From contig NZ_JAFIRA010000008.1 in assembly GCF_022848905.1 (NCBI RefSeq), positions 1-64,000 on the forward strand: a stretch of 64,000 nt of DNA. Direction: 5' to 3'. The notes under the pieces were generated by a model, which did no database searches, was not told where the DNA came from, and worked only from the letters and a program-made list of their open reading frames with translations. A program made the position numbers and the translations under genes. How positions within the stretch are numbered: position 1 is the stretch's first letter; each line of letters begins with the position of its first letter. Source of the DNA: Thermostichus vulcanus str. 'Rupite' (GTDB lineage Bacteria > Cyanobacteriota > Cyanobacteriia > Thermostichales > Thermostichaceae). This document shows, in pieces, positions 11,165 to 13,197 of the stretch.

Positions 11165-11330
11165 TGACACTCCCCCGGTTAGAAACCGGGGGATTCTCCC
11201 TTCTAGCTCCCCACAGCTTGAAGCTGTGGAGGATTCATGGAGTTCAGGGGATTGCCAACTACCCCATCCCCTGAGCCGACCGTACCCATTACAGATACGG
11301 CTTCTTTTAGACTCAGAGGACACGCGAATC
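11165..11330 (-). ncRNA. Candidate omega RNA (reRNA) at the tnpB 3' end
   Basis: In TnpB systems the guide RNA is transcribed from the 3' end of tnpB and the right element end, and its guide comes from the DNA just outside. Here the last codons of tnpB hold a perfect CCACAGCTT-G-AAGCTGTGG hairpin (11211-11229), followed within about 20 bases by the GGTTTCTAACC hairpin. On the minus strand the RNA would read through both and end in flanking sequence beginning about AGTTCATTGAGCTG. The limits are inferred, and no promoter or processing site was identified. Confidence 0.35.
11172..11192. repeat. IS end palindrome, copy 1 (3' side of tnpB)
   Basis: Perfect inverted repeat CCCCCGGTT-AGA-AACCGGGGG able to form a nine-base-pair hairpin. 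It lies about 10 bases downstream of the tnpB stop and is identical to the copy upstream of the gene. Confidence 0.85.
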
Positions 11331-12399
11331 CGTCCCACTGGGCAATGTTCATTGCGGCATTCCAGTCGGCATCACAGCAATACCCGTCCTGCCCAGTGAA
11401 CAGATGCCCACTCCTTTTCCCAATGGCCTCCGGCCCTGCGGAGCAGATCAATCCTGTCCTGTGGTCGGTTTTGGATGTGTAGGCAGCAGGGCGCTTGTGT
11501 AGAGTTCTACCTGCCATTTCCAGCTTGTAGGCAACCTTCCACTCCAGGTCGTAGTACGACCAGGTATGGCGCGATTTCCCGGCATCCGAACGCGCCTTCT
11601 GGCTCTGTCTGGATTGGCGGATACCTGAGAGGTCTTCCATCCACACATCCGCATTTACCGCCTTGGCAAACCGTACAATGCGGCGGCTCACGGTGTGGTT
11701 GACCGCCCTCATCCAACGGGCTTCTTTGCGCTCCAGTCGCTTGAGTGCTCGGTATTTACCCGCCTGTTGCAACTGGGCACGACGCTTCTGGAAACGACGA
11801 CGACGATAGGCTACCTCTCCACCCCCAAAAAACACCGCCCGACCCCAACGGGTGGCCGCCACTGCCAAACGGTTCTGCCCCCGGTCAACACCCAGTCGCT
11901 CCGTACTCTTCACTTCGGGAACTTCCCAAGTGATAGATACAACCGCGTACCAACAGCCCCGTAGCTTCATGAGTTTCAAGGTTCCCCGTTCACAATCCTG
12001 TTCGGCCAGGATGCGCTCAAGACGCTCGGCATAGTAGGAACTGCTAACCTCAAGGGGAACCCGCTTGTCACCCTGAATCGTGGGAAAACTCACCGAGTAG
12101 GTGCTACCTACTTTGTGCAGCTTCCAGTTTTGGTTGTTGACCTCTGGCCAGAACACTTTGAAGTGCTTGACCCGCTGGCCGGCTTTCCCCTTCAGGACAC
12201 GAATCACCTGGTTGGAGAGGGCCGACTTGAGTGGTGTCACCACTTTGGCGGTTGTCAAGGCTTTTCGTTCCTTCGGACTGATGCGGAGCAGTTCGTTTGC
12301 CAGTGCGGTTGTCGCACAAACCGTCTGGTTAAACATCTCTGCTTTGACCGCATTGAGGTCAAGAAACTTGAGCTTGAGTGTGGTGGTGACCCGTTTCAT
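11203..12399 (-). CDS. tnpB: TnpB, RNA-guided nuclease of an IS200/IS605-type element
   Basis: A 398-residue protein with the N-terminal OrfB helix-turn-helix region (about 1-100), the central WED-like part and a RuvC nuclease core. Predicted catalytic acids are Asp172 in LGVDRGQNR, Glu255 in VWMEDLSG and Asp345 in CDADWNAAMNI, all present. The zinc ribbon normally inserted before the last motif is not canonical: between residues 310 and 342 there is only Cys319 and the pair Cys341-Cys342, with no two CxxC pairs. I recall Zn-less relatives in cyanobacteria, so this may be a clade feature rather than decay. The frame is otherwise complete. It starts at ATG 12399 and ends just inside the downstream IS hairpin. 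Confidence 0.88.
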   Translation of the reverse strand: MKRVTTTLKLKFLDLNAVKAEMFNQTVCATTALANELLRISPKERKALTTAKVVTPLKSALSNQVIRVLKGKAGQRVKHFKVFWPEVNNQNWKLHKVGSTYSVSFPTIQGDKRVPLEVSSSYYAERLERILAEQDCERGTLKLMKLRGCWYAVVSITWEVPEVKSTERLGVDRGQNRLAVAATRWGRAVFFGGGEVAYRRRRFQKRRAQLQQAGKYRALKRLERKEARWMRAVNHTVSRRIVRFAKAVNADVWMEDLSGIRQSRQSQKARSDAGKSRHTWSYYDLEWKVAYKLEMAGRTLHKRPAAYTSKTDHRTGLICSAGPEAIGKRSGHLFTGQDGYCCDADWNAAMNIAQWDGFACPLSLKEAVSVMGTVGSGDGVVGNPLNSMNPPQLQAVGS

Positions 12400-12456
12400 G
12401 GGGACTATTGTATATATATTTCTGTTGCTGAATAAATTCAGCCTGTGCGCTTATAT

Positions 12457-12477
12457 CCCCCGGTTAGAAACCGGGGG
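12457..12477. repeat. IS end palindrome, copy 2 (5' side of tnpB)
   Basis: Same 21-base palindrome CCCCCGGTTAGAAACCGGGGG as at 11172-11192, in the same orientation, about 58 bases upstream of the tnpB start. It ends 30 bases before the stop codon of the neighbouring small zinc-ribbon gene. Confidence 0.85.
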
Positions 12478-12507
12478 CTTTACGCTGCTTTTCGTAACTA
12501 TGAGTAA

Positions 12508-12687
12508 CTACCCTCCCGCTTTCCAGGTACCCCCATAACGGCAGAAAGGATTGTTCCGGCTGAGGGGATCCCAGCAGGTAGGGCATACCAACCACCAACG
12601 GCCTGTCGCCTCAAACTGGATGCCATAACGAATATGCACCGCTTGGCTGCAGTGCTGGCAGGGCTTGGGTTGAGAGCGGGTGCTCAA
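12508..12687 (-). CDS. Small zinc-ribbon protein directly behind apcF (59 codons)
   Basis: The frame runs from TTG 12687 to TAG 12508. The product has two clear Cys pairs, CQHC (about residues 9-12) and CPTC (about 35-38), plus a single Cys near FCRYGG, and ends in YGGTWKAGG. The ending and the Cys spacing remind me of a small cyanobacterial zinc-ribbon family, but I cannot name it. It follows apcF in the same reading frame: apcF ends in TGA (12694-12696), then two codons, then TTG. The ribosome site would be the AAAGAGA inside the last apcF codons. It is absent from any longer ATG-initiated frame. It contains a GGGATCCC motif, as native genes do. The IS element lies immediately downstream. 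Confidence 0.6.
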   Translation of the reverse strand: MSTRSQPKPCQHCSQAVHIRYGIQFEATGRWWLVCPTCWDPLSRNNPFCRYGGTWKAGG

Positions 12688-12693
12688 ATCGGC

Positions 12694-13197
12694 TCAAATA
12701 TCTCTTTCGCTCAGCCCGTCGCTCAGGTAGTCAAAGGGTTCGGCTACAAAGCTGTAGTCTTCGTCAGTGCCCAGCAGCTCTAGGGTTCGCACCTTCATGT
12801 TTTGGATACCAATCACCGTCGGTGCAATTGGCACACCGAGAGAGTTGTAGGTTTCCCGCAGCCCCGCCAGCACCCGTTCATCCAAAATGCTGGTATCGGC
12901 AGCTACGATGGCATAGGAAGCATAGCGCAAGAAATAGTCCATATCCCGCAAACAGGTGGCATAGCGGCGGGTGGTATAGGCATTGCCCCCCGGACGAATC
13001 AGATCCGGCACCTGGGTGAACATGCCCGCGGCAGCCGTCTTGACGATATCCACTGAGTTGAGATTGATTACATTCACTGCCTTGATGCGCCGTAGCCCCG
13101 AGTCATAAAAAGACTTGAGTGTGTCCATCGCATCCCGATCCAGGTAGCGGCCTGTCAGGTCGTAGGTTTTGATCAGTGTGGTCACAGCATCACGCAT
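12694..13197 (-). CDS. apcF: Allophycocyanin beta-18 subunit ApcF
   Basis: Minor beta-type allophycocyanin subunit of the phycobilisome core; it pairs with the core-membrane linker ApcE in a terminal-emitter trimer that passes energy to the photosystems. The 167-residue product begins MRDAVTTLIKTYDLTGRYLD and ends LSERDI, which fits ApcF rather than ApcB. The phycocyanobilin-attachment Cys is Cys82 in RRYATCLRDMDYFLRYASYA, and the beta-family Asn-containing loop LIRPGGNAYTTRRY is intact. It starts at ATG 13197. The next ORF downstream is in the same frame after one stop codon, so the two are probably cotranscribed. Confidence 0.95.
   Translation of the reverse strand: MRDAVTTLIKTYDLTGRYLDRDAMDTLKSFYDSGLRRIKAVNVINLNSVDIVKTAAAGMFTQVPDLIRPGGNAYTTRRYATCLRDMDYFLRYASYAIVAADTSILDERVLAGLRETYNSLGVPIAPTVIGIQNMKVRTLELLGTDEDYSFVAEPFDYLSDGLSERDI

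Follow-up and report, generated by a model that had tools for sequence, protein, structure and literature searches.

The window, i.e. the whole stretch of 64,000 nucleotides analysed here (Thermostichus vulcanus str. 'Rupite', contig NZ_JAFIRA010000008.1), carries a phycobilisome gene and a small zinc-ribbon frame that follow each other in one reading frame across a single TGA. Are the two translated as separate proteins, or does the stop codon hide a fusion?

One frame across the apcF stop codon

The first gene, apcF, encodes an allophycocyanin beta-type subunit of 167 aa and lies on the minus strand (12694..13197), with its 167 codons at 13197..12697 and its TGA at 12694-12696. The product matched the Pfam model Phycobilisome (PF00502, E 8.1e-56), whose domain spans its full length, and the NCBIfam model TIGR01337 with 236.9 bits against a cut-off of 228.15; TIGR01337 itself is named apcB, and apcF is the gene name which we take to apply.

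Behind the stop, on the same strand, follow a spacer of two in-frame codons, GCC GAT (12688..12693), and the small zinc-ribbon gene (12508..12687), which is read from a TTG at 12687..12685 to a TAG at 12510..12508 and encodes 59 aa, with CxxC pairs at residues 10-13 and 35-38 and a C-terminal YGGTWKA. Translation confirmed that apcF, spacer and ribbon form one frame with a lone internal stop, as described in an earlier note on this DNA that left the minus strand unsaid. The two-CxxC frame of that note is likewise real, its 57 residues becoming 59 when counted from the TTG, and the weak TTG placed just past the apcF stop was found there, 6 nt on. From the apcF stop up to the first cysteine, the ribbon frame offers no other ATG, GTG or TTG, and its TTG has no strong Shine-Dalgarno site, an AGAG lying about 14 nt upstream. 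Consecutive co-directed genes share a frame in one of three cases, so that a common frame by itself does not exceed chance.

The downstream neighbour, outside the pair, is a TnpB-type (IS605 OrfB) gene on the minus strand (11206..12399). Near-identical hairpins at 11172-11194 and 12457-12479 flank it (stretch 11172-12485), the one upstream of TnpB lying about 25 nt behind the ribbon stop.

A small gene that is rarely beside apcF

The ribbon frame is, well above chance, a real coding sequence. The earlier note had called it short and easily missed and had suggested a search for it as a separate gene in other cyanobacteria, and such genes were indeed found: 165 of the 388 genomes of the class, the window's own included, harbour homologues at E<=0.01, with one convincing copy in the window's own genome. 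In a sample of the phylum, 54 of 292 genomes gave matches at E<=0.001, a lower bound because the first pass scored no more than 22 candidates in any one genome; one match, a weak one (3.6e-4), lay outside the class, suggesting a cyanobacteria-centred family that is nearly confined to it.

Ten residues are invariant in 34 aligned proteins (C10, C13, W31, C35, C38, Y51, G52, G53, T54 and K56 in the numbering of the window), i.e. including both CxxC pairs. The ribbon of the window is of full length and retains all of them, with a Cys in place of the near-invariant Tyr49. It shares 81% identity with that of a congener, G079, from which it differs by 18 synonymous changes over 36 sites and 11 non-synonymous changes over 132 sites; the resulting dN/dS of 0.107 and the 0.053 obtained for the two apcF genes are both rough values because dS is near saturation at about 0.8. 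The ribbon is thus under purifying selection, part of which could have acted on the branch of G079. Outside the genus, an in-frame ATG lies no more than 25 codons ahead of the first CxxC in 38 of 48 loci, in a count that preferred ATG where present and included one genome (G289) twice.

Position, too, argues for independence. Among the 59 genomes that could be placed, i.e. those with coordinates of both apcF and ribbon among the matches listed, the two adjoin only in the window's genome and in G079, and not once outside the genus. Six of the 59 carry both genes on a single contig at a distance of over 120 kb, and 51 carry them on different contigs, which is weaker evidence than distance because many assemblies are fragmented. 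Across the class, full-length apcF matches as a rule have no ribbon next to them, and a search of the literature on apcF with a zinc ribbon in cyanobacteria returned nothing.

Within the genus (n=6), an intact ribbon lies behind apcF in the window and in G079, one copy is decayed and three are lost. In G079, apcF ends with TAA, followed by an 18-nt linker, in which a GAGGA directly ahead of the start resembles a Shine-Dalgarno site, and by the same TTG start, so that the spacer differs from that of the window in both length and sequence; by its sequence, this layout looks like a separate start. The next frame downstream in G079 looks broken. The apcF of G043 is 96% identical to that of the window and is followed by only a decayed ribbon remnant, in which the TTG is lost, the codon of the first cysteine altered and a stretch of 69 nt with the second CxxC missing. 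G004, G029 and G068 have no ribbon behind apcF, and a profile search elsewhere in these genomes gave no convincing copy (best E 0.11, none and 0.07, respectively). In G004 (locus L035), the end of apcF is repeated in tandem over 12 bases (ACCGATATCTAA twice), which adds a second stop directly behind the first. G101, G091 and G057, which comprise two genomes from other genera of this family and the order's outgroup, have no ribbon behind apcF and, by profile search, no convincing copy anywhere. The gene is therefore patchy and in the process of being lost in this group.

Separate translation, decay or recoding

We consider it very likely that apcF and the ribbon are two separate genes on one message, the ribbon being an independent protein started at the TTG by termination-reinitiation behind apcF, which was also the simpler reading in the earlier note. 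The two genes would be co-transcribed, ribosomes would end ApcF at an ordinary TGA and some of them would restart at the TTG seven bases on, giving a free zinc-ribbon protein of 59 residues. A spacer of 6 nt with no strong Shine-Dalgarno site fits such a restart by ribosomes leaving apcF, and termination-reinitiation coupling in archaea and bacteria is a subject treated in PMC6728339. The ordinary explanation for the shared frame is chance. Two observations count against separate genes, i.e. the weakness of the TTG in the window, the only start codon ahead of the first cysteine, and a frame common with apcF in each of the three congeners that retain ribbon sequence (G000, i.e. the window's genome, G079 and G043) despite linkers that differ by 3 and 12 nt, an outcome expected by chance in about one of nine cases, given the first.

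Of the alternatives, the one that survives best, though improbable, is that the ribbon frame is decaying and has ceased to be translated in the window. The TTG start with its weak ribosome site, the close TnpB element, the Cys at position 49 and the decay or absence of the ribbon in four of the six genomes of the genus would all be in keeping with this. The frame has nevertheless kept its full length and every invariant residue, and the dN/dS against G079 is low, even if the selection that it reflects may lie partly on the other branch.

Read-through of the TGA, whether programmed or leaky, would add small amounts of an ApcF-zinc-ribbon fusion (about 229 residues) to normal ApcF. This reading, of which the earlier note had raised the possibility of a fusion by read-through, is very unlikely. 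The single frame, the short distance, a TGA as stop, the weak TTG and the frame kept in the three congeners speak for it. However, the nearest intact pair, that of G079, has a TAA, a longer and different linker and its own Shine-Dalgarno-like site, and elsewhere the ribbon family is independent of apcF. An uninterrupted apcF-ribbon frame occurs in none of the nine genomes of the order, nor did a fusion turn up among the 59 genomes placed. Instead of a conserved leaky stop with an in-frame extension, we found an unconserved linker and adjacency in two of these 59. The earlier note had named relatives with the small gene away from apcF and with its own ATG as counting against read-through, and most relatives do have the gene away from apcF, usually with its own ATG. 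As for the stop context, a U at +4 is reported to lower read-through in E. coli (PMC5289835). The base at +4 in the window is G, a context that does not rule out read-through and does not clearly favour it either.

Hardly any credence is left for a recent stop gain splitting an ancestral ApcF-ribbon fusion, also raised in the earlier note, as the single frame that suggests it is set against an apcF that commonly stands at full length with no ribbon behind it in the class and against an ApcF that stops at the same conserved C-terminus (S-E-x-x-I/V) in all nine genomes of the order, an intact ribbon being absent behind apcF in seven of them, so that the stop was not gained recently. The stop-codon question can thus be closed, with no sign of recoding at the apcF TGA.

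Family and partners of the ribbon

The two CxxC pairs mark the protein as a probable zinc ribbon with predicted zinc binding. Residues 4-51 of the window protein align with PF12773 DZR (double zinc ribbon), whose CxxC pairs are alike, at E 9.3e-4; its 19.8 bits fall under the gathering cut-off of 27.3, and just one of the 34 family members reaches E 0.001. The HVO_2753-type micro-proteins (NCBIfam NF041909) are likewise about 60 residues long with one zinc-finger domain; their model matches one of the 34 members (E 3.4e-4), and the window protein has no match in NCBIfam. One-domain zinc-finger micro-proteins of this type are the subject of PMC6562870. Altogether, the 34 members gave scattered matches to four models in Pfam and NCBIfam, with one or two members each. 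Searches of the PDB by sequence and by fold yielded nothing significant for the ribbon; RPB9-type ribbons came up repeatedly among the insignificant matches. A structure model built from two sequences only is weak (pLDDT 67, pTM 0.44, short strands); with it, the best Foldseek match has E 2.0, and RNA polymerase II subunit I (RPB9-type) chains are among nine weak matches. The family, which is widespread, selected and small, thus has no Pfam or NCBIfam model above cut-off, and annotators easily lose its TTG-started copies.

Outside the genus, the gene is mostly found by itself or immediately after a PIN/TRAM gene. A survey of neighbours covered 55 loci, 52 of them outside the genus. In 19 of these 52 (e.g. 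L066, L070 and L073), the ribbon immediately follows a co-directed PIN/TRAM gene, with a gap of up to about 160 nt; flank lengths were unequal, the PIN and TRAM domains were assigned by Pfam in one of the 19, and several of the 19 belong to a single genus, so that they do not count as independent. Six of these junctions keep the ribbon and the PIN/TRAM gene in one frame and 13 do not, as chance or unconnected frames would give. While these ribbons belong to the same family as that of the window and have their partner adjacent, the PIN/TRAM gene of the window's genome is on another contig (C58, the ribbon being on C8). All nine genomes of the order keep PIN/TRAM, and it sits at a different place.

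Four loci (L042-L045) from small genomes, presumably of picocyanobacteria, have the ribbon at the C-terminal end of a single uninterrupted frame (250-297). These long frames were considered as ApcF fusions and rejected, being DUF924-type proteins: DUF924 was found by Pfam in L042 and L044, with which L043 and L045 cluster. The same label on L017, L029, L047, L048, L050 and L052 was left uncounted, as it may stem from the ribbon part alone. With several unrelated partners, as a neighbour or in a fusion, the ribbon thus exists independently of any one of them.

The ribbon itself, a lysine/arginine-rich tail and the PIN/TRAM neighbour suggest a role at nucleic acid or at the ribosome. Nob1, which is archaeal and eukaryotic, has a PIN domain and a ribbon in one chain and offers a parallel to the PIN/TRAM-ribbon pair. 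It is tempting to speculate, although we hold it doubtful, that this uncharacterised cyanobacteria-centred family (CxxC-x21-CxxC-x12-YGGTxK in the spacing of the window) has a role involving RNA or the ribosome, with PIN/TRAM as its operon partner in many lineages. That the nine genomes of the order all keep PIN/TRAM, seven of them with no intact ribbon, counts against this. A literature search on the PIN TRAM domain in cyanobacteria found nothing. The recurrent spot behind the PIN/TRAM gene is a testable lead to the function of the ribbon. In most of the 19 loci, the gene beyond PIN/TRAM is of the radical SAM kind, HemN/HemW-like and oppositely oriented, a gene order that recurs; Pfam identified this gene on one locus.
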